Source: Streptomyces sp. B21-083 (lineage in GTDB: Bacteria; Actinomycetota; Actinomycetes; Streptomycetales; Streptomycetaceae). Taken from it: a stretch of DNA of 64,000 bases. Under the pieces are notes generated by a model. The model was not told the origin of the DNA. It worked only from the letters and a program-made list of their open reading frames with translations, and did no database searches. The translations under genes and the position numbers were made by a program. Positions 3,126-58,486 of the stretch are shown here, piece after piece (the first letter of the stretch is position 1; each line of letters starts with the position of its first letter). The stretch spans positions 2,914,001-2,978,000 of the forward strand of contig NZ_JARUND010000001.1 in assembly GCF_036898825.1 (NCBI RefSeq). Reading direction: 5' to 3'.

Positions 3126-4309
3126 AGGGCGATGAGCGTGCGGTCGTCGTCGTAGGTCTCACGGGAGAAGTCGAGCAGGTGGGCGAAGCCCAACGGCGGT
3201 ACGGGGCTCAGCAGTCCGTAGTAGAAGTGGCGGGCCACGGCCCCCTTTCCGTCGCCGAGCGGGTCGCCGAACCCGTCCGTGCCGACCAGCAGGACCGTCT
3301 GCTGTTCCAGGGCGAAGGAGAGCGGACGGATGACTCCGGGGAGGAAGGGCAGCGGGTCCACCGTCGAGGAGTACAGCCCGTCCGTGCCGGCTCCCTTGCC
3401 GCCTGTCAGCCGGTAGAACGTGTCGTGCTTGATCTGCCAGGCGCCCGAGTCGCCGATCGAGATCAGGTGGACGAAGACGCCCTGGTCGGTGGGCGTCGCC
3501 GTCCCGGCCACCAGGGTGGTCGCCAGCAGTCCGGCCGTCTCCTCGGGGCCCGCGTCGGGACGGTGCAGGATCCGGCGGGCCTGTTCGACGAGCTGCCAGT
3601 GGACCGTGGACAGCAGCTTGTCCCAGTCGGCGACATACCCGGCGCCCTCGCCCCGGACCTGGCTGAGCATCTCGTCCACGGCGCTGCGGCAGGCCAGTTG
3701 GGACCCGATGTGGGGCTGGCGTGCGCTGGAGACCCCGTCGGCGACGGCGAACACCACGGTTCCGGTGCCCTCGTCCCAGGCCGCCGCCGCGTCGTCCTCG
3801 CGGGGGCGGCCCTCGTAACGGTGCTGATAGCCGCGTACGGAGGCGAGGCGCAGGGCCATCTTCCCCGTCTGCCAGCCGTCGCAGACGGTGTCCGGGCGGT
3901 AGGACAGCCCGCGCGGCGGCACAATGTCGAACGGCGGTACGGGTTTGCCGACGACGATGGGCCGCCAGTGCCCGGCGATGTTCATCCCCACCGGTGCCGC
4001 TGCCGGTGCCTCCACCGGTACCGCCACTACCGAGTCGGGGGCCGGCTCCGGTGCCTTCTCCCTGCCGGGGGCCGCGCCAGGGGCCGTTCCGGGGCCGGGG
4101 ACTCCCGTGCCGTTGCCGTGCTGAGCACCGGACTGCCGTACCGGGTAGGGCTGTTGTACCGGATCGGTTTGCTGCGCCGGGTCGGACTGCTGCGCAGGGT
4201 CGGGCCGTTGCAGGGAGTCCGGGCGCTGTACGGAGTCCGGGCGCCGCGCCGGGTCCGACCGGTCGGGTCGTCGCTCCGTCTCGCTCTGCCGCTTGCCGAA
4301 CAGGGCCAC
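3086..4309 (-). CDS. PP2C-family Ser/Thr protein phosphatase
   Basis: A 407-residue protein, GTG start one base after the stop of the vWA gene upstream. The first 110 residues are low-complexity, with repeated RPD and PAQQSDP units. The PP2C domain covers about 150-400: RGYQHRYEGRPREDD carries the first metal-binding acidic residues, VFAVADGVSSA the DG pair, ATTLVAG and SIGDSGAW the core strands, LLVGTDGFGDPLGDG the second DG, and YDDDRTLIAL the final metal Asp. All key acidic residues appear present, so it should be an active Mn/Mg-dependent phosphatase. Its likely substrates are the kinase and vWA proteins of the same operon, as in TerY-PP2C-kinase triads; this is inferred from context. Confidence 0.88.
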   Translation of the reverse strand: MALFGKRQSETERRPDRSDPARRPDSVQRPDSLQRPDPAQQSDPAQQTDPVQQPYPVRQSGAQHGNGTGVPGPGTAPGAAPGREKAPEPAPDSVVAVPVEAPAAAPVGMNIAGHWRPIVVGKPVPPFDIVPPRGLSYRPDTVCDGWQTGKMALRLASVRGYQHRYEGRPREDDAAAAWDEGTGTVVFAVADGVSSARQPHIGSQLACRSAVDEMLSQVRGEGAGYVADWDKLLSTVHWQLVEQARRILHRPDAGPEETAGLLATTLVAGTATPTDQGVFVHLISIGDSGAWQIKHDTFYRLTGGKGAGTDGLYSSTVDPLPFLPGVIRPLSFALEQQTVLLVGTDGFGDPLGDGKGAVARHFYYGLLSPVPPLGFAHLLDFSRETYDDDRTLIALWPWNDAPGGPSC

Positions 4310-44175: not shown

Positions 44176-44778
44176 TCAGGCCCGCTCGTAGCGGGCGGTG
44201 CTGTCCCGGGTCAGCAGCCCCTCGTCGACGAGGGCCCGGCGCAGGCTGACCCAGTCGTCCAGCCAACCGCCGCAGATGGCGTTCACCTTGGGCTCGTCAT
44301 AGGTCACGCCCTTCTCGAAGGACTCGGCGACCACTGTCAGCACACGTTTGCGGGTCTTCGCGTTGCCGGGGATGGAAGCCAGACGGCCTTTGCGGAAATA
44401 GGCTCCGGCGCCGTCCCCTGCGTCCCGTCCGGTCAGCCGCACCTCTTCGCGCACTGCCAGCCGGAAGGTGTCGTCGACGAGGTTGTACGTGCCCCGGTCC
44501 GGGTCGTGGGAGGCGATTCGCCCCTGGGCCAACTTCTGCAGTGCCATCGCGGCGGCGGTGGGCCGCAGCCCGGTCCGCTCGGCCACCTCGGCCACGGTGA
44601 CGGCGCCCAGCGCGAGCGCCGCGTAGGCGGACCGGCGGTCCTCCTGCGCGAGAAGTCCGACCAGGTCGCGACAGGACGGCGGTCGCTCGTGTGTCCTGGT
44701 GGCAGACCCGTCGTCGACGGTGTCCCGCTCCGAGGCGATTTCGGAGGTGGCGGATCGGGGGGAGTCGGTGGCAGTCAA
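44176..44778 (-). CDS. botL: Bottromycin cluster regulator BotL (DUF2087)
   Basis: A 200-residue protein from TTG44778 (GAGAGAG upstream); later GTG starts are possible. A helix-turn-helix-like segment lies at about 40-90 (VTVAEVAERTGLRPTAAAMALQKLAQG) and the C-terminal DUF2087 domain at about 130-195 (SIPGNAKTRKRVLTVVAESF, then EPKVNAICGGWLDDWVSLRR and LVDEGLLTRD). The homologue BtmL modulates expression of the bottromycin cluster, as I recall from published work, rather than being a simple on/off switch. Three 10-bp direct repeats lie just upstream of the start (44791-44820) and may be a control element. Confidence 0.85.
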   Translation of the reverse strand: MTATDSPRSATSEIASERDTVDDGSATRTHERPPSCRDLVGLLAQEDRRSAYAALALGAVTVAEVAERTGLRPTAAAMALQKLAQGRIASHDPDRGTYNLVDDTFRLAVREEVRLTGRDAGDGAGAYFRKGRLASIPGNAKTRKRVLTVVAESFEKGVTYDEPKVNAICGGWLDDWVSLRRALVDEGLLTRDSTARYERA

Positions 44779-44892: not shown

Positions 44893-46893
44893 TCACGCGC
44901 TTTCGGATGTTTCCGGCCAGTCGGCCGCCGAGGGGTCCCCGAGCCTGTGGACGGGGCCGAGCGACAGCGCCACGGCTGGACGGGCGCGGCGCGGGGTGCC
45001 TTTGGGCGGCGGTGTGCGATAGGCAGAGGGGACGGCCCGGGTGGCCAGGGCGATCACCTTCGTGCCCTCGCTGTGGATCCAGCGTCGGCGCTCCCATTCC
45101 GCGAGGGTCCGTGCGGTCCGGTCCACGTCGGTACCGGGCCCTCCGGGAACGAACAGGTCGCGGTGGCGGGCCCCGCCGATCAGAGCCCGGTACAGGCGGG
45201 CCTCCGCGTCCGTGAGCACCGTCCGACCCGCCGGCAGACCGGGCCTGCCCTCGTCGAGGACCACGGATTCGAAGCCGAGGCGGTAGGTGAAGTGCGCCCG
45301 GCGGTACTGGGCCCGCCACAAGCTGATCCTGGCCGCCAGCAGCCGCCGTAATTCCTCGTTCTCGGCGGCGTCGGTGAAATCACCTTCGAAGTGGTAGGCG
45401 ATGTCCCACAACTCCCCGGGAGTGAGCTGCGGATAGACGTATCGATACCCCGCCAACGGCCTGGTGAGCGTCAGACCGAATTGCTCGGGACGCTCCACGT
45501 ACGGGCTGAACCGGTCGAAGTGCACAGCCAGGATGTCGTTGTCAGGGGCCTGCAGATGAGTCAGCGAGGAAACCAGCTCGACCTGCTCCCGGAGGGATGC
45601 GGGAGTTTCGTCCGGGTAGCCGGTGAGGATGTTCCAGACCGGCAGCACCCCGTACTCGGCGCAGCCCAGGAGGAACCTGATGTTCTGGTAGGCCGTGGCT
45701 CCCTTGCGCAGGAGACGCAGACCCTCCGTGCTGAGACTCTCGATTCCCGGCTGCACCGAACGGATACCCGCCCGCCGCATGGCCCGAATGTCCGCCCACT
45801 CCATGTTCGCCTTCACCTCGAAGAACAAGGAATGATCGGTCCCCAGTTTCTCGATCTTCGGCAACGCCGTGTCCAGATACTTCAGATCAAGAATGTTGTC
45901 CACCGCGAAAAAGTCCAGCACACCATACCGGTTCATCAGGTGACTCAATTCATCCGCCACCGAATCCGGATGCTTACTCCGATAGTTCATCGTCGCACCG
46001 TTCAACCCACAGAACGTGCAATGCGTCTTCGCACCCCACCAACACCCCCGCGAGAACTCCACCGGCAAAGTGATCTCCGGCTCCAGATCCCCCAACCCCG
46101 CATCCGCCAACTGCTCGAAGAACCCGTCATAGTTCGGCACCGGCACCGCCAACGGACCACCCCGACCAGGCACCGCAGGAGCCGACACATCCCCCGCAGC
46201 CGCCCCCGCCCCCGCCCGCGTCCGCAACCGCCCCACGTCCACCACCGGACCACCCGCCGACACCGACCGCAGCAACGACAGGAACGCGTCCTCCCCCGGA
46301 CCGTCCACCACCGCGTCCAACGCCGGATACCGCGCCAGCAACGTCCGCCCCATCGACCCCTCGCAGTTACTGCCCCCCATCACGATCACCCCGCCGTAAC
46401 CGTGCTCCCGCAACCGCTCCGCCACCGCCAACGTCGGCCCGTTCTGGCTGAAAGTGCTGGTGAACCCGATGACGTCGGGCCGACCGGTGAGCAGCCTGCG
46501 TACGGTCCGTTCCACGTGCAGCTCGGCCGGCCCACGGAGCGCGTCCACCAGGGCGATCGTGGTGTCGCCGACACCATGAGCGCGCAACTCGGCGTGGTAG
46601 GCGTCGCGTTCGTCCGCGTCGGCGTGACGCCGTGCGAAGATCCAGTCGCCCACCGCGAGGTGGTACAGCTCCTCGGACACCATCCGGTACGCCTCGGACC
46701 ACTCCTTGCGGTCCATGCCCGGCAGGGGACCCGCCGCGCGCGCGAGCCCGTAGAAGTCGAGGTACGCGTAGTGGGACTCGGCCTCCCAGCCCCCCGCCTC
46801 GGCAACGGCTCGCAGCGCGCCCACCTGGATCGAGGGGCGCCGAACGTTGTTCCAGGGCATGGAGACCAGTGCGACCCGAGGGCGCTCCGTCAT
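44893..46893 (-). CDS. botRMT3: B12-dependent radical SAM C-methyltransferase BotRMT3 (predicted proline methylase)
   Basis: A 666-residue protein of the RiPP-maturation radical SAM C-methyltransferase family. The N-terminal cobalamin-binding part covers about 1-220 (VIVMGGSNCEGSMG), and the radical SAM barrel follows, with its 4Fe-4S site C-x7-C-x2-C in RGCWWGAKTHCTFCGLNG. By gene order it equals BtmK, assigned by earlier mutant work to methylation of Pro2. Residues about 147-416 are encoded by DNA practically identical to that in botRMT1 (45645-46452). A TTA codon (complement of 45349-45351) lies at codon 515. It starts 10 bp after the P450 gene. Confidence 0.92.
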   Translation of the reverse strand: MTERPRVALVSMPWNNVRRPSIQVGALRAVAEAGGWEAESHYAYLDFYGLARAAGPLPGMDRKEWSEAYRMVSEELYHLAVGDWIFARRHADADERDAYHAELRAHGVGDTTIALVDALRGPAELHVERTVRRLLTGRPDVIGFTSTFSQNGPTLAVAERLREHGYGGVIVMGGSNCEGSMGRTLLARYPALDAVVDGPGEDAFLSLLRSVSAGGPVVDVGRLRTRAGAGAAAGDVSAPAVPGRGGPLAVPVPNYDGFFEQLADAGLGDLEPEITLPVEFSRGCWWGAKTHCTFCGLNGATMNYRSKHPDSVADELSHLMNRYGVLDFFAVDNILDLKYLDTALPKIEKLGTDHSLFFEVKANMEWADIRAMRRAGIRSVQPGIESLSTEGLRLLRKGATAYQNIRFLLGCAEYGVLPVWNILTGYPDETPASLREQVELVSSLTHLQAPDNDILAVHFDRFSPYVERPEQFGLTLTRPLAGYRYVYPQLTPGELWDIAYHFEGDFTDAAENEELRRLLAARISLWRAQYRRAHFTYRLGFESVVLDEGRPGLPAGRTVLTDAEARLYRALIGGARHRDLFVPGGPGTDVDRTARTLAEWERRRWIHSEGTKVIALATRAVPSAYRTPPPKGTPRRARPAVALSLGPVHRLGDPSAADWPETSESA
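45645..46452 (-). repeat. 808-bp direct repeat, copy in botRMT3
   Basis: This segment matches 55947-56754 base for base at a constant offset of 10302, apart from two mismatches at 46269 and 46272. Identity continues patchily to 45609. It encodes the cobalamin-binding end and the radical SAM core, while the flanking parts of the two genes are clearly divergent. On the coding strand it uses many G- and T-ending codons (GGT, GGG, TTG, TGT), unlike the neighbouring C-ending style. Confidence 0.92.
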
Positions 46894-46903
46894 GACACCA
46901 CCC

Positions 46904-48115
46904 TCACCAGGTCAGCCGAAGGTCGTAGGAGTTGCGCAGGAACGGCGGCGGGTCCTGGCGGAGCGCGGCCGGCACCTCGTAGCGCGGCACCGCCCGGTGC
47001 CATTCCTCCAGCGCCGTGAGGATCTGGGCGCGGGCGAACGCCGCTCCCAGACACTGGTGGGCACCGGTACCGAAGGCGATGTGGGGGTTGCGTTCCCGGT
47101 CGAAGTCCACCTGCTCCGGACGGTCGAAGACCGCCGGGTCGTGATTGGCGAGGGCCAGGGGCAGCAGCACCGTATCGCCCTGGTCCGTGACCCCCGCTGC
47201 CCCCGGCCGTACCGCCATCCGCCCGGGGTACATACAGGAGTTGACGCGCAGGAACTCCTCCACCGCCACCGGCCTGATGTCCCGCTCGGTCAGGAAGCGG
47301 GTCCGGTCGGCCTCGTGATAGGCGAAGTACTGGACCGCGTTGGCCAGATGATTCACGGTGGAGTCCACGCCTGCCAGGAAGATCACGCACAGCAGCGAGG
47401 CCCGGTCGTCGTCCCCGACCGGCTCGCCGCCGATCGTCCACGTCAGGCTCGCCGTCGTCAGGTCCCCGGCCGGCTCCGCCCTTCGCAGAGCGATGTGCTC
47501 CCGTGCGAACCGTTCCAGGGCGGGCAGGCCCAGTTCTCCGTACGCGGCTTCGCGGGGGTCGGGCTCCGACCGCGAGTCGATCATGGCCCGGTCGATGGCG
47601 AGCAGGAGGTCGAGGCGCTCGGCGGGCCAGCCCACAGCCTCCATCAGATTCTCCATCACGAACGGCCGGGCGAAGTCCTCGTTGAAGGAGATCTCGCCGC
47701 GTTCGAGGAGGCCGCCGATCCGTGCCCGGGCACGGCCACGCACTCCTGGGGTCAGGTCGCGGACCCGCTGCGGGGTGAACCAGGAGGCCAGCCGACGACG
47801 CCACTCCGTGTGCTCGGCACCTTCCACAGTGAGGGGGACCCACCGCTCCTCCTGTGCCCCCTCGGCCGCGCTGACCCGCCCCACGGTGAACGTGTCCTCG
47901 TCCCGGAACGCCTCACAGATGCCCTCGTAGGAGGAGAGCACCCAGAAGCCGGGGCCCCGGTCGCTGTGGAAGGCACCGTCGCGGGCGTACATCGCGGCCG
48001 CGCGCCGGTATTCCTCGGGGGCGTTGAAGAAGTCGAAGTCGACCGACACCGGGCAGCCCCCGGAAGCCCGGGCCGGTGCGTCCGTCTCACTGAGTTGTTC
48101 GTTCCGCAAGGACAC
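46904..48115 (-). CDS. botCYP: Bottromycin cytochrome P450 BotCYP
   Basis: GTG48115 (AAGGGA upstream) gives 403 residues, overlapping the amidohydrolase gene by 29 bp. The heme-binding loop is FGTGAHQCLG with the thiolate Cys, the I-helix has LAGVDSTVN, and EEFLR is the ExxR pair. BotCYP oxidatively decarboxylates the C-terminal thiazoline of the linear intermediate to the thiazole found in bottromycin. Length and motifs are normal for soluble bacterial P450s. It corresponds to btmJ in gene order. Confidence 0.93.
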   Translation of the reverse strand: MSLRNEQLSETDAPARASGGCPVSVDFDFFNAPEEYRRAAAMYARDGAFHSDRGPGFWVLSSYEGICEAFRDEDTFTVGRVSAAEGAQEERWVPLTVEGAEHTEWRRRLASWFTPQRVRDLTPGVRGRARARIGGLLERGEISFNEDFARPFVMENLMEAVGWPAERLDLLLAIDRAMIDSRSEPDPREAAYGELGLPALERFAREHIALRRAEPAGDLTTASLTWTIGGEPVGDDDRASLLCVIFLAGVDSTVNHLANAVQYFAYHEADRTRFLTERDIRPVAVEEFLRVNSCMYPGRMAVRPGAAGVTDQGDTVLLPLALANHDPAVFDRPEQVDFDRERNPHIAFGTGAHQCLGAAFARAQILTALEEWHRAVPRYEVPAALRQDPPPFLRNSYDLRLTW

Positions 48116-49580
48116 TCATCCCTTCGGTCGGTCGATCGCCGGGTATCGGCGGATCGAGTTCGCCACGTGGCCAGTCCGAGGCGGTCAGCCCCGAAACTGA
48201 CAGCCTCAGGGCCCACAAGCGGTCCAGATCCGCCTCGTCGAGCAGGACGCCGTCGATGAGCACCGCGTCCGGCCTCGCCAGCCCCGCCACCCGGTCGTTC
48301 GGATGCCGGCGGTAGAGAACCAGGTCGGAGGAGGCGGGGACGGCCGCGGTCCTGCCCGTTCCCGGCAGGGCGGGGGTCATCGCGCGGTACGCGTTGACCG
48401 TGGCCGCCCGCAGCAGCGCCCCGAAGCTCAACCCGGCCCGCTCGAGCTCCGCCAACTCCTTGTGGAAGGAGGGACCCGCCAGCACGAACGGGTTGCCGCA
48501 GTCGGTGCCGACCAGGAGCCGGGCGGCGACGCCTTCGGTGCGCGCCACCAGCTCGCCCAGACGGTCCACGGTGGCGCCCCGCAGGCGGGCCTCCACGGGG
48601 TCCAGCCGCAGCGCCTCCCGCGCGGCGTGTTGCCAGGCCCGCCGTCTGCTCGGGGTAGCCGCGGCCAGCGCCGTCCGGGAGTGCCTGGTCCTGTGCCGCT
48701 CACCACTGCGGGCACGCCAGCACACCAGGGTCGGGCAGATCAGGTGCCGGTGCGGGCCGGACCCGGCGAGCGCGTCACTCATCTCCGCCGCCCGCTCCCT
48801 GACCCCGGTCGCGGACAACGCACCCGCCAGGGAGGGCCAGCGCCGGTCCTGCGGCAGCCGGAACACGTTCGGCACGACGCCGTAGAGGTGCTCGCTGGTC
48901 CGCAGCACACGGGCCGCCGTCGCGAACGGGACCCGTTCGGGCACATGGCCGACCACCGGGATCCCGGCCCGCCGGCAGGCATTCGCCAGCCGGTCCATGA
49001 CGGCGGGTTCGATGTCGTCGTAGATCTTGAGCCCGTGGTACCCGAACGCGAGCGACTCCTCGATCACTCGGCGGACCGCCTTGTCGTCGGCCAGCACCGT
49101 CACCGCGTCGGGCAGCCTGGTCGCCGGCCCGTCCACGACTCCCGCGGTGACCCACAGCCGGGGCAGCACCACATGCCGGGCCCGCCGCGCGCCTTCCGCC
49201 AGGAGGTGGGCCGGTTCACCCCACAACTGCCGACAGCCCGTCACCCCGTGCACCAGGAGACCGACCAGGTCCGCGAGCGAGGACACGTGCGCGTGGGCGT
49301 CGACCATCCCGGAGACCGCGTACCAGGCGCAGGGCCGTTTGCGCTCCGGCTGCCGGGGGCCCGAGTAGGGCGAGGGCCCCGTCGTGCAGCGGCCGTCGGT
49401 GACGGTCAGATCCTGCACGGGCCCGGGTTCACCCGTGACCGGGTCGACCTGCCGTACCTCCCGGAGGATGTGATTCCGAGGCCGGGCCGCGAACTCCTCC
49501 AGAGCCGTCACCAGGGGATCGCCCTCGGGCAGCAGGTTGCGCCGCCACCGCCACTGGGCCTCTTCCAGTCCGCTGCTCAT
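48087..49580 (-). CDS. botAH: Bottromycin amidohydrolase BotAH
   Basis: ATG49580 overlaps the botH stop (ATGA) and gives 497 residues. It is an amidohydrolase of the imidazolonepropionase-like type: HxH in MVDAHAHVSS, Lys in YHGLKIYDD, His in VVGHVPE, and Asp in LLVGTDCGNPF. In bottromycin maturation it hydrolyses the follower peptide from the thiazoline-bearing intermediate after macroamidine formation, making that step irreversible. It corresponds to btmI. The metal ligands all seem to be present. Confidence 0.92.
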   Translation of the reverse strand: MSSGLEEAQWRWRRNLLPEGDPLVTALEEFAARPRNHILREVRQVDPVTGEPGPVQDLTVTDGRCTTGPSPYSGPRQPERKRPCAWYAVSGMVDAHAHVSSLADLVGLLVHGVTGCRQLWGEPAHLLAEGARRARHVVLPRLWVTAGVVDGPATRLPDAVTVLADDKAVRRVIEESLAFGYHGLKIYDDIEPAVMDRLANACRRAGIPVVGHVPERVPFATAARVLRTSEHLYGVVPNVFRLPQDRRWPSLAGALSATGVRERAAEMSDALAGSGPHRHLICPTLVCWRARSGERHRTRHSRTALAAATPSRRRAWQHAAREALRLDPVEARLRGATVDRLGELVARTEGVAARLLVGTDCGNPFVLAGPSFHKELAELERAGLSFGALLRAATVNAYRAMTPALPGTGRTAAVPASSDLVLYRRHPNDRVAGLARPDAVLIDGVLLDEADLDRLWALRLSVSGLTASDWPRGELDPPIPGDRPTEGMSVLAERTTQ

Positions 49581-50371
49581 CCCGGTGCCCGCCCCGTCGC
49601 CGCGGTGCCGGCCGGTATCACCCGGGCCACTTCCGCGAGCTGTGCCGCCGCCTTCACCCGGCTCTCGGCGTCGAGCAGCCACAGCTGGGCGCCGAGTCGG
49701 CGTTCGCCGGCCCTGAACGGTGCGAGGTCCGCGTCGCCGGAGGCGCCGACCAGGACCACTTCCTGGTCGGGGAAGCCTCTCGGCACCTCTCGTTCACCGC
49801 CGAGCAGCAGGCCCCGGGTGGCGTGTCCCAGTTCCCGGCGGTCCACCCGGTCACAGGCATCGACCATCCAGGGCGGTGCGCCCTTCGCGACGAAGTTGTC
49901 TCTCAGGTACTCGGCGCCGTCAGGCCCTTCGACAGCCCGGGCCTCCTCTTCCACGGCATCGCCCGGGATCACGACGGCCTCCGCGTGGGCGCAGAAGGAC
50001 ACCACTCGGCTGATCCGGGCGTCGGCGGCGGCCACCGACAGCGCGACCCGACCGCCGTAGTACAGGCCGATCACCGTGCAACGGCGATGCCCGAGGTGGT
50101 CCAGGACGGCCCGCAGGTCCGCCGTGTACCGGTGGGGGGCGTGTGCCGCGGCGGCGCCGCCGGGCCCGCTGTCACCGCGTCCGCGCAGATCCACGGAGGT
50201 GACGTCGGCGTCGGCGGGGAGCGCCGCCAGGAAGCCGGAGTCCGTCCACACCCGCCGGTCCATGGCCACGCCGTGCACCAGCAGCACCGCCTGCCCGGGG
50301 CCGGGTCGGCGTTCGGCGGCTATCACCGTGCCGTCCTCCGACACCACGGTGAACTGTTCGACCTCATCCAC
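49577..50371 (-). CDS. botH: Atypical alpha/beta-hydrolase-fold epimerase BotH
   Basis: GTG50371 (GGGGGAG upstream) gives 264 residues and overlaps the preceding stop by 8 bp. The fold is clear (VLLVHGVAMDRRVWTDSG, SVDLRGRGDSG), but the nucleophile elbow reads GLYYGGR in place of GxSxGG, so the catalytic Ser is Tyr and ordinary hydrolysis is impossible. This agrees with BotH, an atypical family member that epimerises the core Asp from L to D without a catalytic triad. The residue replacing Ser is read directly from TAC at about 50060. It corresponds to btmH. Confidence 0.92.
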   Translation of the reverse strand: MDEVEQFTVVSEDGTVIAAERRPGPGQAVLLVHGVAMDRRVWTDSGFLAALPADADVTSVDLRGRGDSGPGGAAAAHAPHRYTADLRAVLDHLGHRRCTVIGLYYGGRVALSVAAADARISRVVSFCAHAEAVVIPGDAVEEEARAVEGPDGAEYLRDNFVAKGAPPWMVDACDRVDRRELGHATRGLLLGGEREVPRGFPDQEVVLVGASGDADLAPFRAGERRLGAQLWLLDAESRVKAAAQLAEVARVIPAGTAATGRAPG

Positions 50372-52382
50372 GCGCGTCTCCCCCTGTCCGGCTGCCGCCT
50401 GCCACGGTGACCTGGTCCGGGCTCGCGTCCTTCGTGTCCGGCGTGTCGCGGTCCCGCAGCTCGTCGGCGAGTCCCTCGTCACGGAGTTCCGCCGCCCTTC
50501 CCAGTTCGTCGGGCATGCCGTCCCGGGTGGCCAGGATCAGTCCCCGGCGGGCCTCGATGTGCAGCCACCCCCGTCGGCTCCAGGTCCGCAGCCGGCCCCG
50601 GAGTTCGGCCTGGGGCACGCCCGTCATGTCGAACACCCTTTCCACGGTCTGGTCGATTCGTCCGCCGTGCGCCATCGACCGGAACAGCTGGTCGTCGGCA
50701 CCGCGCAGCACGTGGCGGCCGGTGGCCACGTGCGGCCGATGGTCCTGCAGGACGGTCAGGTCGGGGCCCAGCCGGTAGGTGAACCGGGACTGCGCGTGCA
50801 GCTTCTTCCACAGCCCCACCCGCGCGCCCAGCCGCCGTCGCAGTGCCAGTAGCTCGTCCGCGTCCGTCCGTTCCTCGGTCTCGGTGTGCGAGAAGGAGTA
50901 GGCGAGCGCGGCCTGGTCGGCGGCGGGGGACGGGTGGATGAACCTGTACTTGGGCTCCGGCCCGTTCAGCGCGATCCGGAATTCGTCGGGCCTCTCGTGG
51001 TACGGGCTGTAACGGTCCACGCGGACCCGGCTGACCGTCGACGGGGGCGCCAGATGGGTGATGAACGGGAACAGTGCGAGCTGTTCCTCCAGCATCCGGG
51101 GCGTCTCCATCGGCATCGCCGACAGAAGGTTCCACCGCGCGTCGATGCCCAGCTCGGCGCAGAGAACCAGGAACCGCAGATTGTGGAAGGCGGTGGCACC
51201 CTTGCGCAGCAGCCGGAGCGCCCCGCTGCTCAGGCTTTCGATGCCGGGTTGCACCATGGTCACTCCGGCGGCCCGCATCTCGCCGACCTCCCGGGGCCCG
51301 AGATTCGCCTTGACCTCGAAGAAGGTCGTGACGTCGACCTCGGACGCGGCCAGCTCGGCCAGACCGTTGTCCCGCTTGGCGAGGATGGTGTCGACCGCGT
51401 AGGTGTCGAACACCCCGTGCTTCTCGGTCAGTTGCCGCAGCGTGTCGGTCAGCCTGCGCCCCGGTTTGCTGCGGTAGACCATCCCGCTGCCGTTCTCGCC
51501 GCAGAAGGTGCACTGGAGCTTCTCGCCCCACCAGCAACCGCGTGACATCTGGAACGGCAGAGCCACATGTGGGGTGATGAGATCGCGCCACGGCAGGTCC
51601 CGCAACCGCGCGAAGTACTCGTCGTAGCGGGGCACCGGGGCCGAGTCCGCGTCCTGAGCCACCGGCAGCCCCGCCCGTATCCCGTCCTCGGCGCGCAGCG
51701 CCAGACCGGGGACGCCCGCGAGATCGGCGAGGCTCCCGGCCGCCCGGAGTGCCGTGACCGCCGCCTCGCCCTCGCCCTGCACCACGGCGTCGACGAACGG
51801 GTAGGCGACCATCACGGCCTGCCCCATCGGCCGGTCGCAGTTGGCGCCTCCGAGCACGACGTGGCGCCGCGGATCCCGTTCCTTCAGGGCTCGCCCGATG
51901 GCCAGCGAAGGGACGAGTTGGCTGAACGAGGTGGTGAACCCGTACATCGGTGCGTCCAGTTCGAGCATCCGCTCGGCGAAACCGGCCACGAAGTCGGGTG
52001 CGATCGCACGCAGGTCCAGGACCCGGCGCACCATCTCCTCCGAGACTCCGCGCGACGTGAGGAAGGCCGCGTAATCGGCTGATGCCGTCTCCTCGGCGTC
52101 GGGACCGGCGTCCGATGCGCGAGGTCCGTCCGCCGGCCCTCCGAAGATCCAGTCGCCGACACCGAAGCCGTACAGTTCCTCACCGATGGTGTCGTAGACC
52201 GACACGAACTCCGTTGGGTCCCACCCGAGGGTCTCCACGGCGTACTGCGACCAGTCCAGGTATCCGTAGACCGGGATGACCGGATCACCCGGAGTGTGGT
52301 CGGCCAGCGCTGCCAGGGTGGCGATCTGGATCGACGGCCGGTACAGGCTGTTCCAGGGCGGTGCGATCAGTACGAGCTTCAC
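50364..52382 (-). CDS. botRMT2: B12-dependent radical SAM C-methyltransferase BotRMT2 (predicted valine methylase)
   Basis: GTG52382 overlaps the botCD stop as GTGA and gives 672 residues. The cobalamin-binding part (VVLGGANCDRPMGQA) covers about 1-220 and the radical SAM site is RGCWWGEKLQCTFCGENG (C-x7-C-x2-C). Unlike the other two radical SAM genes it shares no near-identical DNA with them. By order it equals BtmG, assigned by earlier mutant work to methylation of valines in the core. It should methylate unactivated C-H positions of the precursor in the cytoplasm. Confidence 0.92.
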   Translation of the reverse strand: MKLVLIAPPWNSLYRPSIQIATLAALADHTPGDPVIPVYGYLDWSQYAVETLGWDPTEFVSVYDTIGEELYGFGVGDWIFGGPADGPRASDAGPDAEETASADYAAFLTSRGVSEEMVRRVLDLRAIAPDFVAGFAERMLELDAPMYGFTTSFSQLVPSLAIGRALKERDPRRHVVLGGANCDRPMGQAVMVAYPFVDAVVQGEGEAAVTALRAAGSLADLAGVPGLALRAEDGIRAGLPVAQDADSAPVPRYDEYFARLRDLPWRDLITPHVALPFQMSRGCWWGEKLQCTFCGENGSGMVYRSKPGRRLTDTLRQLTEKHGVFDTYAVDTILAKRDNGLAELAASEVDVTTFFEVKANLGPREVGEMRAAGVTMVQPGIESLSSGALRLLRKGATAFHNLRFLVLCAELGIDARWNLLSAMPMETPRMLEEQLALFPFITHLAPPSTVSRVRVDRYSPYHERPDEFRIALNGPEPKYRFIHPSPAADQAALAYSFSHTETEERTDADELLALRRRLGARVGLWKKLHAQSRFTYRLGPDLTVLQDHRPHVATGRHVLRGADDQLFRSMAHGGRIDQTVERVFDMTGVPQAELRGRLRTWSRRGWLHIEARRGLILATRDGMPDELGRAAELRDEGLADELRDRDTPDTKDASPDQVTVAGGSRTGGDARG

Positions 52383-53704
52383 CGCGGACTGCCCTTCCTG
52401 GGCCGCAGCCGGGCGTCGAGCCGGCCTGTGGGCAGCACCGGGTAACCCGCGCGCGCCTTGTCCAGCATCTCCAGCCCGGGGACGACCACATCGACCACCG
52501 TCACCGGCCCCGGCTCGGTGAGGACTCGGTGGTACGGCTCCAGACCCACCGCGCGCAGCCGCTCGACCAGGCGCCGCAGCAGCTGCTCGGGGGAGGCCGC
52601 GGCGGGCAGTGCGTCGGTGGTGTCGAAGGGCACCGGCCTGTGCGTCAGGGCCCGTACGTCGAACCGGGCCGCCGCCAGATGGCGCGGCCAGCGCGCGAGG
52701 GCGCGGGCGATCTGCTCGGACTCGCTGCCCGCGTCCACCGGGCCGTGCCGGTACATCGTCCTTACCTGGAGGTACTCCAGGAGGGCTCGTTGGAGGGCGT
52801 ATTCGGGCACCGGGGACGAGCCGCTGCCGACCAGCCGGACCGGTTCGTCGGCGACCGCGTCGCAGACCAGGTAGCTGGGTACCCGGGTGTCACAGGTGAG
52901 GGAGACGATCAGGAGCTGGGCGCCACAGGCCCGTGCGACCTCGGCCGTCAGCTCCCGGAGCTCGGCGGGAAGGCTCTCGGGTTCGACGACGGGCAGCGCG
53001 CGGCCGCTCCCGAAGTACACGTCGGCGAGCAGGTGCGACCACGCGTCGCGCTCGATGGCCTCGTTGACCGCGTGCACCAGTGCCTCCGCCAGGGTGGCCC
53101 CCGCGGCGTAGCCGGCGCTGGAGGTGTAGTGCCACAGCGGGGCGAACACCCCCGTGTCCGCGGGGTGGGGCCAGTTGCGGTAGCCACCGTCACGGAGGAA
53201 GACCGGATGGCGATGGACGGCCGGAACGACCGCCTCCCCGAACACCTCGGCGACCGGGCGGTAGGCCCGGGTCAGGATCTCGCCACCGTCGTCGATTCCG
53301 GCCAGCCGTCGCAACAGCGCGGACGGTTCGGCGGACGGCTGACCGGCCACGGCTCCGGCGGTCAGGAACGCCGCCTCGTCCGCCCGGTGATCGCGCCGCC
53401 AGTCCAGGTGGTAGTGCTCGGCACTCTCGTACAGGGCGCTGGCCAGACTGCGGTGGCCGAGCCCCTTGCCCGAACTGCGCGAGCACAGCGCGCCACCGGC
53501 ATCGGTCAGGCGCACTTCGTAGGTGGGGGCGCTGTCGATCCCGTAGCGGTTGATGTCGGCGGTCAGGCTCCGGTCGGCCAGCCAGTCCCCGACCGTGGTC
53601 AGGGCGGTGGTAAGGGAGGTCTCACGCTCGGGTGGTATGTCGTCCGAGTGGGTCGGGCCGGAGATCGCTGCTGTCAGCAGGTCGTGGGGTGCGGTCCGGG
53701 GCAA
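52379..53704 (-). CDS. botCD: Divergent YcaO enzyme BotCD (macroamidine formation)
   Basis: The start is TTG53704, seven bases after GAGGAG, placing the first 83 bp inside the botC frame; length 441 residues. YcaO ATP-binding features are SSGKGLGHRSLASALYESAE and SAGYAAGATLAEALVHAV then NEAIERDAW. As a stand-alone YcaO without a partner E1 protein it activates a backbone amide with ATP so that the N-terminal amine closes the macroamidine ring. The role as macroamidine former follows from its position second after the precursor (BtmF/BmbE). Confidence 0.92.
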   Translation of the reverse strand: MPRTAPHDLLTAAISGPTHSDDIPPERETSLTTALTTVGDWLADRSLTADINRYGIDSAPTYEVRLTDAGGALCSRSSGKGLGHRSLASALYESAEHYHLDWRRDHRADEAAFLTAGAVAGQPSAEPSALLRRLAGIDDGGEILTRAYRPVAEVFGEAVVPAVHRHPVFLRDGGYRNWPHPADTGVFAPLWHYTSSAGYAAGATLAEALVHAVNEAIERDAWSHLLADVYFGSGRALPVVEPESLPAELRELTAEVARACGAQLLIVSLTCDTRVPSYLVCDAVADEPVRLVGSGSSPVPEYALQRALLEYLQVRTMYRHGPVDAGSESEQIARALARWPRHLAAARFDVRALTHRPVPFDTTDALPAAASPEQLLRRLVERLRAVGLEPYHRVLTEPGPVTVVDVVVPGLEMLDKARAGYPVLPTGRLDARLRPRKGSPR

Positions 53705-54836
53705 GGGTTCTCCTCACTTCGCCCGTGTCGAACACGGGAATTCCTGCTCGGACCAGGCCCAGCAGAGGCTGTGGATCCGTCACCACGTGGGCGAGGTGGA
53801 GCCTGGTCGGCGGAAGGTCGGGGCCGAAGAGGTCGACCGAGATCCGGTCGGCCCAGACGGAGAGGGATCGGTCGGTCAGTTCCCGCAGCGGAGCGCGGGG
53901 CGGGACGGCGCGCGGTGTGCCGGCCGGGCCGTCGGGGTCCCGCAGGTCGAAGTCGAGACAGACACACCGCATCAGGGCGGGCCATCTCTCGAACCGGCGG
54001 AGGAACTCCCGTTCAGCGGATTCGGCCGTCAGGTTCAGACGCCACAACGTCCGTGCCTGTTCGAGTTCCATCAGGGCGCGCTCACCGGCCTGTTGGAGGT
54101 CCGGCCCGCTGCCGAGGCCGGTCGCGGGCATCGACCGGTCCTCGCTGCGGGCGACGGCGAGGACCGTGGGCGTCGCGGTGATCCCTCGCAGCAGGATCAG
54201 TTCGGGCTCGGGTTCCGGCGTGACGCGGGAGAGAGTCCTCGCGCCGTCCGTGGGCGGCGCCTGCGAGGCGGGTGGCCGGTACGGCGGTGCCGCCAGCCCG
54301 CGGTACAGGTGCACCCCGTAATCGACGGATTCCGTCAACTCCAGAAGGGCACCGCTGAGTGCCGCCTCGGCATCGGGCGCCGCGGCCCAGCCGATGGTGC
54401 TGGCCAGCCGGGCATCGGTGGAGCGCAGCGTGCCCGTGCGCAGTTCCTCCCCCGCTATCCAGGGTGAGGACCAGAACATCGGCACCTCGCGGTCGCGGCC
54501 GCCGGCCGGCGGGTGATAGCGGCGCAGCAGGCAGTCAGGGGGCGCCGCGCGCAGCCCGGACGGCCCGCTGACGAGCCCTCCACGGTCGCCGACCGTGGGA
54601 GTGGGCGGACGGACGACCGGGGCCAACGGGGAGCAGGCCGCCAGGCGTTCGACGGCCTCGGAGAAGGCCTTTCGGCGGGCCAGGGGCTCCTGCCCGTCCG
54701 TTCCGTGGCCCTCTGCGGTCGCGCCGGACACCGTCCTGATCCGGCACCGCACTGTCACGGTGGCCGGGGCGGGCCATGCCTGGTAATCGACCTCACTCAG
54801 TTCGCACCGGCCGGCCGATGTGCTTCGTACGGTCAC
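53622..54836 (-). CDS. botC: Stand-alone YcaO enzyme BotC (thiazoline formation)
   Basis: GTG54836 gives 404 residues. YcaO traits are EGHGTDGQEPLARRKAFSEA then VERLA (residues about 42-68), and STIGWAAAPDAEAALSGALL then ELTESVDY; the second motif lacks the ERD of typical members. BotC cyclodehydrates Cys8 of the core to a thiazoline using ATP. It lies immediately after the precursor gene, as btmE/bmbD do. About 154 bp with stem-loops separate it from botA, which may lower its expression relative to the precursor. Confidence 0.9.
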   Translation of the reverse strand: MTVRSTSAGRCELSEVDYQAWPAPATVTVRCRIRTVSGATAEGHGTDGQEPLARRKAFSEAVERLAACSPLAPVVRPPTPTVGDRGGLVSGPSGLRAAPPDCLLRRYHPPAGGRDREVPMFWSSPWIAGEELRTGTLRSTDARLASTIGWAAAPDAEAALSGALLELTESVDYGVHLYRGLAAPPYRPPASQAPPTDGARTLSRVTPEPEPELILLRGITATPTVLAVARSEDRSMPATGLGSGPDLQQAGERALMELEQARTLWRLNLTAESAEREFLRRFERWPALMRCVCLDFDLRDPDGPAGTPRAVPPRAPLRELTDRSLSVWADRISVDLFGPDLPPTRLHLAHVVTDPQPLLGLVRAGIPVFDTGEVRRTLAPDRTPRPADSSDLRPDPLGRHTTRA

Positions 54837-54938
54837 CTCTTCGCCCCTCAGTCGCGCTCATCGCCGTGGTCCGCCCACCGGTGTCGAAGTCCGGTGCGGG
54901 GCATGGCCGGCCCGGACGCTGGTGCGCGCCCGGGCCGT

Positions 54939-54961
54939 CGGTCACGGCAGAGCCGTCACCG
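54939..54961 (-). terminator. Stem-loop between botA and botC
   Basis: CGGTCACGGC and GCCGTCACCG pair as a 10-bp stem with one mismatch and a 3-nt loop; a second 6-bp stem (CCGAGT/ACTCGG, 54959-54981) overlaps it. Both lie 10-50 bp after the botA stop. They may act as a partial terminator that keeps precursor mRNA in excess; no T run follows, so efficiency is uncertain. Confidence 0.4.
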
Positions 54962-54990
54962 AGTCCCATGCCGGTACTCGGCGCGGAACA

Positions 54991-55128
54991 TCAGACGCTG
55001 GTGTCGTCCTCGGACCAGACGCCCCAGGACTCCAGCTCCGCGAGTTCGAGGGCGCTGAGTTCCGCGTTGTTCGGGTCGTCGTTGAGGAAGTCAGCCGTCA
55101 TGCAGTCGAAAACGACCACGGGTCCCAT
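54991..55128 (-). CDS. botA: Bottromycin precursor peptide BotA (core GPVVVFDC, C-terminal follower)
   Basis: A 45-residue peptide from ATG55128 (AAAGGA upstream). After Met1 comes GPVVVFDC, the exact bottromycin A2 core, and then a follower MTADFLNDDPNNAELSALE continuing LAELESWGVWSEDDTSV. Bottromycins are unusual in having the core at the N-terminus and a follower instead of a leader. As I remember the S. scabies and S. bottropensis precursors, the follower is the same up to SALE but ends EMEELESWGAWDGEATS, so this one diverges over its last 16 residues. The gene stands between a B12 radical SAM gene and botC. Confidence 0.96.
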   Translation of the reverse strand: MGPVVVFDCMTADFLNDDPNNAELSALELAELESWGVWSEDDTSV

Positions 55129-55251
55129 GAGGGTGTTCCTTTCGTCGGTTCGTGCTGTACGGGCGAACAGGTGTGATCGTGCTCCGCGGGTAGCCCGCGC
55201 TGTGGGCTTCCCTCGGGTCCGCGGGCCCGGGTGCGCGGTGCCGTTGCCTCC
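55129..55251 (-). promoter_or_regulatory. botRMT1-botA intergenic region, probable internal promoter for the precursor
   Basis: This 123-bp gap is the longest but one within the minus-strand cluster. A transcription start inside the cluster ahead of the precursor has been described for the S. scabies homologue, so a promoter is expected here. I see no clear -35/-10 pair; a GTACAG about 24 bp upstream of the botA ATG is the only candidate -10-like element. Confidence 0.4.
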
Positions 55252-57186
55252 CTACGGTCGGGCGGTGAGCGTGAGCGGGACGGGGGTTCGGGCCCGCCGG
55301 GGAGTGCCCTTGGCCGGTGGGGTGCGGTAGGCGGACGGCACAGCCCTGATGGCCAGGGCGATGACCTTGGTGCCTTCCGCGTACACCCATCGGCGCCGCT
55401 GCCAGTCGCGCAGCGTTTCCTGGGCCTGGTCCCAGCGGTCCCCCGACCACCCGAGCTCTTGAAGATCTCGATGGCGGGTTCCGCCGATGACGGCGCGGTA
55501 GAGCCGGGCGTCGTCGCCCGAGAGCCGGATGTCACCGCCGGGCAGTCCGGGGCGCCGGTCGGACAGGGTGACGGAGTCGAAGCCCAGCCGGTAGGTGAAC
55601 GAGGACTCCCCGTGGTGCGCCCGCCAGAGCCTGACCCGGGCAGCGAGCCGCCGCCGGATCGGAGCGTTCGCGGCTCCGTCGGTGAACTCCCCCTCGAAGT
55701 GGTAGGCGATGTCCCACAACTCCCCGGGGGTGAGGTCCGGGTAGACATGCTGGTAGCCGGGCAGGGGGCGGGACAGCGCCAAGCCGTAGCGTTCGGGGTT
55801 TTCCACGTAGGGGCTGAAGCGGTCGAAGCGGATCAGGGTGATGTGCGGCGGTGTGAGGTGCGTCAGCGAGGCCACGGCATCCAACTGCGCGGTGAGCGAC
55901 TCCGGCGTCTCGTCCGGGTAGCCGGTGAGGATGTTCCAGTCCGCCCGCACCCCGTACTCGGCGCAGCCCAGGAGGAACCTGATGTTCTGGTAGGCCGTGG
56001 CTCCCTTGCGCAGGAGACGCAGACCCTCCGTGCTGAGACTCTCGATTCCCGGCTGCACCGAACGGATACCCGCCCGCCGCATGGCCCGAATGTCCGCCCA
56101 CTCCATGTTCGCCTTCACCTCGAAGAACAAGGAATGATCGGTCCCCAGTTTCTCGATCTTCGGCAACGCCGTGTCCAGATACTTCAGATCAAGAATGTTG
56201 TCCACCGCGAAAAAGTCCAGCACACCATACCGGTTCATCAGGTGACTCAATTCATCCGCCACCGAATCCGGATGCTTACTCCGATAGTTCATCGTCGCAC
56301 CGTTCAACCCACAGAACGTGCAATGCGTCTTCGCACCCCACCAACACCCCCGCGAGAACTCCACCGGCAAAGTGATCTCCGGCTCCAGATCCCCCAACCC
56401 CGCATCCGCCAACTGCTCGAAGAACCCGTCATAGTTCGGCACCGGCACCGCCAACGGACCACCCCGACCAGGCACCGCAGGAGCCGACACATCCCCCGCA
56501 GCCGCCCCCGCCCCCGCCCGCGTCCGCAACCGCCCCACGTCCACCACCGGACCACCCGCCGACACCGACCCCAACAACGACAGGAACGCGTCCTCCCCCG
56601 GACCGTCCACCACCGCGTCCAACGCCGGATACCGCGCCAGCAACGTCCGCCCCATCGACCCCTCGCAGTTACTGCCCCCCATCACGATCACCCCGCCGTA
56701 ACCGTGCTCCCGCAACCGCTCCGCCACCGCCAACGTCGGCCCGTTCTGGCTGAACATCGAGGTGAAGCCGATGACGTCGGGGGCGTCCGCCAGCAGGGCG
56801 CGGGCCGTGTGCTCCACATGGGTCTCGGCCACGGACCGCAGGGAGTCGATCAGCGCGATGGAGTGCTCGTCGACCCGATGTTCACGCAACACGGCGTAAT
56901 AGGCGTCGCGTTGGGCCGACACAGCATGACGCCGGGCGAACACCCAATCGCCGGCCGCGAGGTGGTACAGCTTCTCCGACACGGTTTCGTAGGCGTCTGC
57001 CCACACCTCGCCGGAAAGCCCGAGAGCCGACCGGGCGAGACTGTAGAACTTCAGGTATGCGTAATACGGAAAGGCGCTCCACCCGTCAGCCTCGGCCACC
57101 GAACGAAGAATTCCTACTTGAATCGAGGGACGCACTGTGCTGTTCCACGGCATGGAAACCAGCGCGACCTTTCGATCAGCAGACAC
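55252..57186 (-). CDS. botRMT1: B12-dependent radical SAM C-methyltransferase BotRMT1 (predicted phenylalanine methylase)
   Basis: I choose GTG57186, six bases after AAGGGAG, giving 644 residues; GTG57207 lacks a site. The cobalamin region (VIVMGGSNCEGSMG) and the radical SAM site RGCWWGAKTHCTFCGLNG are those of the RiPP C-methyltransferase family. By position it equals BtmC, assigned to beta-methylation of Phe. Residues about 144-413 come from the near-identical DNA shared with botRMT3, while the first 143 and last 230 residues differ, for example in the C-terminal wing. It is the first gene of the minus-strand operon. Confidence 0.92.
   Translation of the reverse strand: MSADRKVALVSMPWNSTVRPSIQVGILRSVAEADGWSAFPYYAYLKFYSLARSALGLSGEVWADAYETVSEKLYHLAAGDWVFARRHAVSAQRDAYYAVLREHRVDEHSIALIDSLRSVAETHVEHTARALLADAPDVIGFTSMFSQNGPTLAVAERLREHGYGGVIVMGGSNCEGSMGRTLLARYPALDAVVDGPGEDAFLSLLGSVSAGGPVVDVGRLRTRAGAGAAAGDVSAPAVPGRGGPLAVPVPNYDGFFEQLADAGLGDLEPEITLPVEFSRGCWWGAKTHCTFCGLNGATMNYRSKHPDSVADELSHLMNRYGVLDFFAVDNILDLKYLDTALPKIEKLGTDHSLFFEVKANMEWADIRAMRRAGIRSVQPGIESLSTEGLRLLRKGATAYQNIRFLLGCAEYGVRADWNILTGYPDETPESLTAQLDAVASLTHLTPPHITLIRFDRFSPYVENPERYGLALSRPLPGYQHVYPDLTPGELWDIAYHFEGEFTDGAANAPIRRRLAARVRLWRAHHGESSFTYRLGFDSVTLSDRRPGLPGGDIRLSGDDARLYRAVIGGTRHRDLQELGWSGDRWDQAQETLRDWQRRRWVYAEGTKVIALAIRAVPSAYRTPPAKGTPRRARTPVPLTLTARP
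55947..56754 (-). repeat. 808-bp direct repeat, copy in botRMT1
   Basis: Partner of 45645-46452, same orientation, 10302 bp away, with two mismatches by eye (56571 and 56574). Both edges are sharp: beyond them the two genes drop to ordinary paralogue similarity. Homologous recombination between the copies would delete about 10.3 kb, from botRMT3 to botRMT1. Confidence 0.92.
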
Positions 57187-57577
57187 GGAATCTCCCTTCG
57201 CAGGCACCGGTTGCGGCTCTGCTAAGAAGCCTCAAATAACGAATGCGTAATGTCAACAACTGGCAAAGGAGTCGCGGGGTTTGGCTGGATATGATCGCAG
57301 CCGCTTGTCGACGTATGTGCGGGAAGCGTGAAGATGGCGCGGTTCGCCCGACTCCGGAACCCCCGCCATCCCCTCGTCTCCCCAGGTCAGACGCCACTGT
57401 AAGTGTGTTCGAGGACGCCCGTGACGAGCTCCCGGGGAGATATGGGGTTGCAAGCCCGAGGAATGCCTCATAGGGTCCACCGGCCGACGCACTACAAGCT
57501 CTCCCTTTACCCTTGCTTTAAGTGCGACTATTTTTCGCCGTCCGCACTCGGCCGGCCATGAGCATGGAGGAGAACTC
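57187..57577. promoter_or_regulatory. Divergent control region of the bottromycin cluster
   Basis: This 391-bp gap separates botRMT1 (minus) from botOMT (plus). For botOMT, TTTACC (57506-57511), a 17-bp spacer and TATTTT (57529-57534) form a plausible sigma70-like promoter about 44 bp before the ATG. For the minus operon, a consensus TTGACA lies at the complement of 57251-57256, 65 bp upstream of the botRMT1 start, without a clear -10. The region is AT-richer than its surroundings. Short open frames here have no ribosome site, so I see no gene. Confidence 0.55.
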
Positions 57578-58486
57578 ATGTCCGAGCCGTTGCGTAGAAG
57601 CCGGTCGGCCGGTGAGAACGACGATCCGTCCGTGTCCCCCTTACGGATCTCCCTGACCGGCGCCGCCGCGACCCTGCTCGCCCCGCTGTACGCACGGGCG
57701 CTGGACGCCCGGTCCCCGCGGCCCCTTCTCGGGGACCGGGCCGCCGCCGCGCTGGTGGCCCGGACGGAGTACGATTTCGGCCGCCTCGGCATCAACGAGA
57801 CCAACGCCGTGGGTGTCGCCCTGCGCACCCGGTGGTTCGACCGTCAGGTCCGGCGCTTCCTCGCGGACCACCCACGCGCCGCCGTCGTCCATCTGGGCTG
57901 CGGCCTCGACGACCGGTTCAGCCGACTCGCGCCCGGCCCGGACGTCCGGTGGTACGACCTCGACCAGCCCGAGGTCATCGACCTTCATCGCACCGTGTAT
58001 CCCGCCCACCCCGCCCGGCAGACCGTCGCCGCGTCGGTCACCGACCCGGACTGGACGGCGCGGATCCCGGCCGACACCCCTGTCTTCGTCGTGGCCGAGG
58101 GCCTGTCCATGTACCTGCGGGCCGAAGACGGCCCGCAGGTTCTGCGTCGGATCGTCGAACGGTTCCCGCAGGGCCAACTCGTGCTCGACACCTACTCCCG
58201 GTTCGCCGTCGGCTCCACCCGCCGCTTCGCCCTCTTCCGCCGCACCGGCGCCCAGCTCGCCTGGGGTGTCGACGACCCGCGTGAACTCGACCGGGAAACA
58301 GCCGGTCTGCGGCTCGTCGAGTCCATCAGCGCCTACGGCACCGCCAAGGGAGTGGATCTCCGTGGACTGCCTCCACGGTTGCGCGCTCGCATACTGCTCG
58401 ACACCCAGGTCATGGCACGGCTGCCGGTGCTGGGCAGCGTCGGTCACCTCTCACGCCACGCGTTCGGCGCGAACACCACCGTCTGA
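57578..58486 (+). CDS. botOMT: Bottromycin O-methyltransferase BotOMT
   Basis: ATG57578 follows GGAGGAGAACTC; 302 residues. It belongs to the leucine carboxyl methyltransferase-like (LCM/TcmP) SAM enzymes: RTRWFDRQVRRFL, VVHLGCGLDDRF (SAM motif I), VRWYDLDQPEVIDL and VFVVAEGLSMYL. BotOMT methylates the side-chain carboxylate of the core Asp to give the methyl ester of mature bottromycin. A TTA codon at 57641-57643 (codon 22) suggests bldA-dependent translation. It is transcribed away from the main operon, together with botT, matching btmB/btmA. Confidence 0.92.
   Translation: MSEPLRRSRSAGENDDPSVSPLRISLTGAAATLLAPLYARALDARSPRPLLGDRAAAALVARTEYDFGRLGINETNAVGVALRTRWFDRQVRRFLADHPRAAVVHLGCGLDDRFSRLAPGPDVRWYDLDQPEVIDLHRTVYPAHPARQTVAASVTDPDWTARIPADTPVFVVAEGLSMYLRAEDGPQVLRRIVERFPQGQLVLDTYSRFAVGSTRRFALFRRTGAQLAWGVDDPRELDRETAGLRLVESISAYGTAKGVDLRGLPPRLRARILLDTQVMARLPVLGSVGHLSRHAFGANTTV

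Follow-up and report, generated by a model that had tools for sequence, protein, structure and literature searches.

The window analysed here, a stretch of 64,000 nucleotides of the Streptomyces sp. B21-083 genome (contig NZ_JARUND010000001.1, positions 2,914,001 to 2,978,000), carries a bottromycin biosynthetic cluster in which the genes for two B12-dependent radical SAM C-methyltransferases, RMT1 and RMT3, share a nearly identical tract of coding sequence. Comparison with related clusters makes it almost certain, at the level of sequence, that segments of these two genes have been converted repeatedly, and we consider it probable (roughly 0.7) that recurrent conversion is combined with selection that keeps one short segment of the proteins, at about residues 420-460, distinct for the choice between Phe and Pro as the methylated residue.

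The two copies of the tract, both in minus-strand genes of the cluster (coordinates are collected in the table), differ at 2 of 808 bases; the RMT1 copy begins at codon 152 and ends with the first base of codon 421, and the RMT3 copy occupies codons 148-417. An earlier note, made from the sequence alone, had likewise counted two differences and placed the identical residues at about 147-416 of RMT3. On the coding strand one mismatch is silent (RMT1 codon 212, TTG/CTG, Leu), and the other places Gly213 of RMT1 against Arg209 of RMT3. As the note had also said, the tract edges lie inside coding sequence and are sharp, and outside the tract RMT1 and RMT3 diverge much more strongly: in sliding 100-base windows moved in steps of 50, identity is 97-100% at the edge and has dropped to 61-62% two to three steps farther out. 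Silent sites follow suit, with 100% identity at third codon positions within the tract, 38-56% in the seven segments wholly outside it and 85% in the segment that straddles its edge (416-435). The best segment of identical codons scores 257.5, whereas none of 2000 column shuffles exceeded 29.3. The window pair thus displays what gene conversion is known by, namely a sharply bounded near-identity of paralogues that extends to silent sites and is flanked by divergent sequence.

Such a pattern could also arise if an assembler had copied one tract into both genes, and the repeat is evidently hard to assemble, as the drafts of S. purpureus and S. sulphureus break in these very genes. Contig ends cut both genes at query residues 176 and 374 in the former and at 272 and 562 in the latter, and matching ends are identical over 77 + 77 bases and 184 + 113 bases, respectively, a comparison confined to the contig ends that implies nothing about full identity between the breaks. 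Judged from these ends, the breaks have the appearance of a repeat that the assembler left unresolved. For the window, however, we regard an artefact as very unlikely. The two copies lie on a contig of 5,416,198 bases, have different flanks and keep two distinguishing bases, all of which speaks against a collapsed repeat, and patchier tracts of like kind are present in the single-contig genomes of S. scabiei 87.22, G228 and G982. Searched against the whole genome, the tract hit five places, namely its own two copies, a stretch of RMT2 (the third methyltransferase gene of the cluster) with 70% identity, and two short weak pieces.

RMT1 and RMT3 were available together as DNA from nine clusters: those of the window, S. 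scabiei, G228, S. ipomoeae, S. orinoci, Actinosynnema, Micromonospora, Saccharopolyspora and G982, the last of which encodes an RMT1 and an RMT3 that match S. bottropensis protein entries at 99.7% and 100%. (RMT2 was found, own genome aside, in 2 of 392 genomes drawn from the genus at E 1e-150 and, at E 1e-200, in 1 of 395 relatives, 0 of 394 from the class and 2 of 394 from the family; one match among these draws, G1010, has the contig number of S. sulphureus and nearly its coordinates, and was left out.) Under a single scoring rule, near-identical RMT1/RMT3 tracts occur in eight of the nine clusters, and their footprints differ. With borders in window RMT1 numbering, this rule gives 152-433 for the window (five mismatches included), 151-241 and 252-371 for S. 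ipomoeae, 141-225, 279-318 and 328-395 for S. orinoci, 279-303 and 307-350 for Actinosynnema, and 106-134, 159-219, 274-419 and 461-645 for Saccharopolyspora sp. NFXS83, while S. scabiei, G228 and G982 have 4, 3 and 5 shorter tracts with more mismatches. Most tracts cover the end of the B12-binding domain and the radical SAM core. When codons were shuffled (G982 left out), seven of eight pairs scored above all 2000 shuffles and the Micromonospora pair was equalled by 4 of 2000; third positions in the best core segment are 92-100% identical in seven of the eight.

The histories of different parts of the proteins were compared in quick maximum-likelihood trees of 12 within-cluster pairs, eight from DNA and four from protein entries (the S. 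cavourensis plasmid, ATCC 21386, NPDC052396 and Actinokineospora), the latter taken to share one contig because their listed contig sizes are equal. Two incomplete proteins (P0041 and P0042) were left out of the alignment, and members were labelled by gene order for the DNA pairs and by the loop described below plus residues 23 and 25 for ATCC 21386. As a measure of mixing we counted the label changes needed to separate RMT1 from RMT3, for which shuffled labels gave means of 8.3-8.4. The core (155-410) does not separate the two enzymes at all (8 changes, shuffled mean 8.4; approximately unbiased [AU] test of one clade, p 0.0005). The N-terminal part (11-140) needs 3 changes, with Saccharopolyspora and ATCC 21386 as the exceptions (one-clade AU p 0.043), and the C-terminal part (471-640) needs 6 (AU p 3e-8). 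Residues 416-470, by contrast with the core, split cleanly with a single change (support 94, under the star limit). Paralogues of one cluster are thus closer to each other than to their orthologues in the tract and not in the N-terminal or 416-470 flanks, as conversion predicts, and trees of the whole genes blend several histories. The alternative that there was no conversion and that strong purifying selection holds the catalytic core similar could appeal to the many invariant columns of the radical SAM core, although conversion itself adds to these; we find it barely credible, given that silent third positions are identical too and that in 6 of the 12 clusters the two paralogues are nearest neighbours of each other in the core tree.

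The earlier note had ascribed the tract to gene conversion, which is strongly supported, but a single recent event in this strain, as it implied, is very improbable. The near-perfect tract does show that the latest event in the window was recent. Tracts with other borders, however, recur across genera in seven other DNA pairs, and the pair of the S. cavourensis plasmid has a core that is identical within the pair and different from that of the window. The window pair and the S. cavourensis pair each form a group of their own in the core tree, which implies that they were homogenised separately or repeatedly. The pair of this nearest relative is homogenised in the core as well and thus offers no donor state for comparison, so that either gene may have been the donor. 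The S. cavourensis proteins (P0001 and P0013), the closest relatives of the window pair, are named as plasmid-borne, on a contig of 175,708 bases, and bottromycin clusters may travel on plasmids. A plasmid collection contained no near DNA match to the S. cavourensis cluster, and a protein search there returned 32 records, all below 60% identity.

Across all 12 pairs the residues of RMT1 and RMT3 are disjoint only at columns 423, 452, 455, 457, 458 and 460 and at a two-residue insertion of RMT3 after 454, and these columns hold in all 12 leave-one-out sets. (Column 649 and two poorly aligned tail columns differ within all 12 pairs without being disjoint.) By an after-the-fact count, 7 of 200000 random draws of six columns, taken from the 127 that differ in at least six pairs, fit within a span of 38 residues. 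The seven Streptomyces pairs alone have 23 disjoint columns, spread over the protein. The narrowing comes from the Saccharopolyspora pair, in which near-identity reaches codon 419 and resumes at codon 461, and from the ATCC 21386 pair, identical over 71-190 and 471-610. The window tract fits the same outline in that it starts just past the class-typical residue 151 and stops just short of 421-423.

Within the unconverted island at about 420-460, most of the disjoint columns fall in a loop and strand before an FDRFSPY motif. RMT1 of the window has the six-residue loop HITLIR and RMT3 the eight-residue loop DNDILAVH, whereas the loop has seven residues in 10 RMT2 proteins and in the 7 distant relatives displayed. 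The residue before FDR or VDR is His in RMT3 and Arg in RMT1, in the same 10 RMT2 proteins (where VDRYSPY follows) and in the 7 relatives. Among the 42 proteins listed in two protein searches, 41 cover the loop, 21 with the RMT1 form and 20 with the RMT3 form (window RMT3 among them), and the partial S. purpureus genes each keep one form.

Published passages assign Phe to RMT1 and Pro to RMT3 (PMC11285071) and state that BtmC methylates Phe6 (PMC5103208). All 11 precursors found (those of the nine DNA pairs, S. purpureus and S. sulphureus) have Pro2 and Phe6, a count to be read with the fact that the search patterns themselves required Pro, although every complete cluster nonetheless gave a match. 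Ten of these came from 14 sequences, the other four being fragments or the HM190 locus described below, and one was added from G982. Precursor cores read GPVVVFDC or GPAVVFDC, with a Leu variant, GPLVVFDC, in S. orinoci (L010:12018). Provided that RMT1 and RMT3 are both active in every cluster, the target cannot be chosen by residues that the two have in common, a point on which the earlier note was right. By this reasoning the window pair excludes 152-420, save 213, as selector and the Saccharopolyspora pair excludes about 461-645, and ATCC 21386, whose precursor was not seen, would exclude 71-190 and 471-610. The note had placed specificity in the N-terminal 145 or C-terminal 235 residues. 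Formally this is correct, but it is far too wide, as ATCC 21386 and Saccharopolyspora are homogenised across much of those parts; the columns still disjoint in every pair (423, 452-460 and the insertion) lie at the very start of its C-terminal part. The candidates that remain are the island, chiefly 452-460, and, more weakly, residues 23 and 25, joined by 111 and 151 if ATCC 21386 is set aside.

We therefore favour, by a modest degree, the island at 420-460 as the main Phe/Pro selector. More tentatively, and with slightly less than even confidence, we suggest that everything outside it is interchangeable between the Phe and Pro enzymes and that the loop (six residues ending in Arg, eight ending in His, seven in RMT2) sets which residue is methylated. 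RMT1 and RMT3 are old paralogues that lie in direct orientation within one cluster, some 10 kb from each other, and homologous recombination repeatedly copies segments between them. In the explanation that we propose, copies that overwrote about 420-460 would be removed by selection, presumably because it is this segment, and within it mainly the loop and strand at 452-460, that directs methylation to Phe6 (RMT1) or Pro2 (RMT3) of the same precursor, and the cluster would behave as though it had one shared catalytic core and two selector segments that are kept apart.

The main rival to the island as selector accepts recurrent conversion and holds that the island is spared mechanically, its 6-base insertion and local mismatch blocking strand exchange with no selection on specificity. 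The island does combine an insertion with low identity (54-69% at 451-463 in 8 of 8 pairs), which should hinder exchange. Yet the linker at about 216-255, 62-86% identical and with insertions in the other seven pairs, is 100% identical in the window, and the C-terminal part, divergent elsewhere, has been homogenised in Saccharopolyspora and ATCC 21386. A mere lack of conversion would also leave unexplained why the loop residues are conserved within each class across genera. On balance we think mechanical sparing unlikely, though it is the most serious of the alternatives to selection on the island.

An AlphaFold model of RMT1 (mean predicted local distance difference test [pLDDT] 86.8, predicted template modelling score 0.85) places the island in well-modelled sequence, with mean pLDDT of 89-94 for blocks 421-460. 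In its secondary structure the differences at 421-423 precede a strand at 425-428 (beta5) and those of the loop fall on a strand at 455-458 (beta6); counted this way, these would be strands five and six of the radical SAM barrel, and R460 would lie immediately beyond strand six. The nearest solved folds are OxsB, TsrM, TokK and CysS, with AprD4 and MgmA also high, and RMT1 has the B12-binding domain followed by a radical SAM barrel that marks B12-dependent radical SAM methyltransferases. With these proteins and with the TIGR03975 C-methyltransferases of ribosomally synthesized and post-translationally modified peptide maturation, RMT1 and RMT3 share domain order and fold (B12-binding domain, radical SAM barrel, C-terminal part); they differ from their TIGR03975 relatives in having much of the core in common within a cluster and, in RMT3, in the His that replaces Arg before D-R-[FY]-S-P-Y. 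Sequence alignments to solved structures stop before the counterparts of 452-460 (those to 9ccb and 6wte reach the first half of the island), so no substrate contacts can be transferred.

Several observations weigh against placing specificity in the island, or against parts of the case for it. The targets of the compared enzymes are assumed by orthology with other strains. The narrowing leans on two clusters: without both Saccharopolyspora and ATCC 21386, columns 25, 111, 151, 533 and 642 are fixed as well, and columns 15, 23, 25, 44, 79, 98, 111, 151 and 421 differ within 11 of the 12 pairs. The nine DNA pairs taken by themselves also have 111 and 151 fixed, so these two are excluded only by ATCC 21386, a cluster whose precursor and product were not seen and in which the N-terminal match is undecided as to which gene is RMT1. 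An N-terminal contribution to specificity may thus exist. One protein, P0002, pairs an RMT1-type loop with RMT3-like residues at 421-423, from which it follows that 423 is not obligatory and that 421-423 alone does not define the class. The substrate channel of CysS, lined by barrel strands beta1-beta3, a C-terminal helix and a single residue from the B12 domain and not by beta6, argues somewhat against the island, and the cluster-binding loop of our model (289-306) has pLDDT below 50. As for recurrence, the strict rule finds no tract in the Micromonospora pair.

What looks like a crossover product of the two genes is found in Streptomyces sp. HM190. Its genome, titled as complete, contains a single RMT1 match at E <= 1e-20, so RMT2 is absent, and the locus (L063:9161-11080) holds one fused RMT1::RMT3 gene with an RMT1-like start, RMT3-like sequence from about residue 350 and an RMT3-type loop. 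Upstream it matches the region before RMT1 and downstream the region after RMT3, and none of the intervening 8-9 kb aligns there apart from the shared core. The missing stretch is the one that holds the precursor, YcaO genes, RMT2 and the P450 in relatives, and a precursor-pattern scan found no precursor at the locus. The HM190 cluster looks like a deletion relic, and recombination between two direct repeats would explain the fusion, in which case conversion and deletion would be two outcomes of one process. Two further proteins, P0010 and P0021, also join an RMT1-like start to an RMT3-like end; one is named S. scabiei, and, known here as protein rows only, they may be real deletions or misassemblies.

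The assignment of the window cluster rests on its gene content (table). Besides a precursor with an N-terminal GPxVVFDC core and a follower, two YcaO enzymes, a P450, an O-methyltransferase and three radical SAM methyltransferases, it includes by Pfam an alpha/beta hydrolase, an M17 aminopeptidase and a transporter, which together make up the set expected for bottromycin, in part from published passages. No Pfam match was obtained for a 531-residue open reading frame at 48087-49682, and the amidohydrolase seen in published clusters was therefore not recognised. A DUF2087 protein lies between RMT3 and the M17 peptidase (44176-44778, minus strand), where S. scabies has btmL and btmM. A chance precursor-pattern match at window position 3636 was set aside. 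The three methyltransferases score 520.5 (RMT1), 431.4 (RMT2) and 517.8 (RMT3) bits with TIGR03975 (curated cut-off 281.85), the Pfam B12-binding match of RMT1 falls just below its cut-off, and RMT2 is about 39-41% identical to the other two and lacks the near-identical tract. The names botRMT1 and botRMT3, used in the earlier note, hold: the order RMT1, RMT2, RMT3 is that of S. scabiei, and each gene matches its positional counterpart there better than the other paralogue (74.6 vs 68.8% for RMT1, 73.1 vs 69.8% for RMT3). For RMT1 the precursor gene directly downstream adds further support.

Table. Features of the bottromycin cluster in the window (positions in the 64,000-nucleotide stretch).
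Feature	Position	Strand	Details
RMT1 (BotRMT1/BmbB/BtmC type), B12-dependent radical SAM C-methyltransferase	55252..57207	-	651 aa; TIGR03975 E 5.9e-156; Pfam Radical_SAM
RMT3 (BotRMT3/BmbJ/BtmK type), B12-dependent radical SAM C-methyltransferase	44893..46893	-	666 aa; TIGR03975 E 3.7e-155; gene order; S. scabiei RMT3 match
RMT2 (Val methyltransferase type)	50364..52382	-	672 aa; third paralogue; TIGR03975
Converted tract, RMT1 copy, codons 152-421	55947..56754	-	2 differences in 808 bases
Converted tract, RMT3 copy, codons 148-417	45645..46452	-	2 differences in 808 bases
RMT1 unconverted island, codons 421-460; class-fixed D423, T452, H455, T457, L458, R460	55828..55947	-	Disjoint columns in 12 pairs
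RMT3 unconverted island, codons 417-458; Asp-Asn insertion, His for Arg before FDRFSPY	45520..45645	-	Disjoint columns in 12 pairs
Bottromycin precursor peptide gene, core GPVVVFDC + follower, 45 aa	54991..55128	-	Precursor pattern
First YcaO enzyme of cluster	53622..54836	-	Pfam YcaO 1.4e-10
Second YcaO enzyme of cluster	52379..53704	-	Pfam YcaO 1.9e-34
Cytochrome P450 of cluster, directly upstream of RMT3	46904..48115	-	Pfam p450 2.1e-09
Divergent methyltransferase gene (BotOMT position)	57578..58486	+	Pfam LCM 1.9e-19

Divergence islands that persist under conversion are already known in other genes. In the available passages of PMC3728101, GOT1p1 and GOT1p2 of the copepod Tigriopus californicus likewise undergo ongoing paralogue conversion and retain islands that may mark selected new functions; that case, however, concerns a eukaryote and a comparison of populations, whereas RMT1 and RMT3 have assigned targets in one peptide and tracts across genera. 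Nonribosomal peptide synthetase assembly lines, as described in passages of PMC9205934, also recombine within and between biosynthetic clusters, with homogenising conversion acknowledged and part of a domain carrying substrate choice, but there recombination of adenylation (A) domains is inferred to import new specificity, whereas the copies between RMT1 and RMT3 stop at the putative selector and the classes stay apart. Our literature search, whose scope left aside the primary 2012 cluster papers and most subscription journals, found no paper on conversion between bottromycin methyltransferases, which suggests, within the literature looked at, a new case of a known kind.

For genome mining, the finding means that draft bottromycin clusters can be broken in RMT1 and RMT3, and clusters such as those of the S. 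purpureus and S. sulphureus drafts (L056, L057, L058, L059, L060 and L061), broken in both genes, may be called incomplete. How radical SAM methyltransferases choose their residue is also a practical open question for the engineering of peptide antibiotics. If the explanation proposed here is true, natural recombination has carried out a domain-swap series on these enzymes, and it points to a stretch of roughly ten residues as the putative selector, which could be tested by a simple swap.

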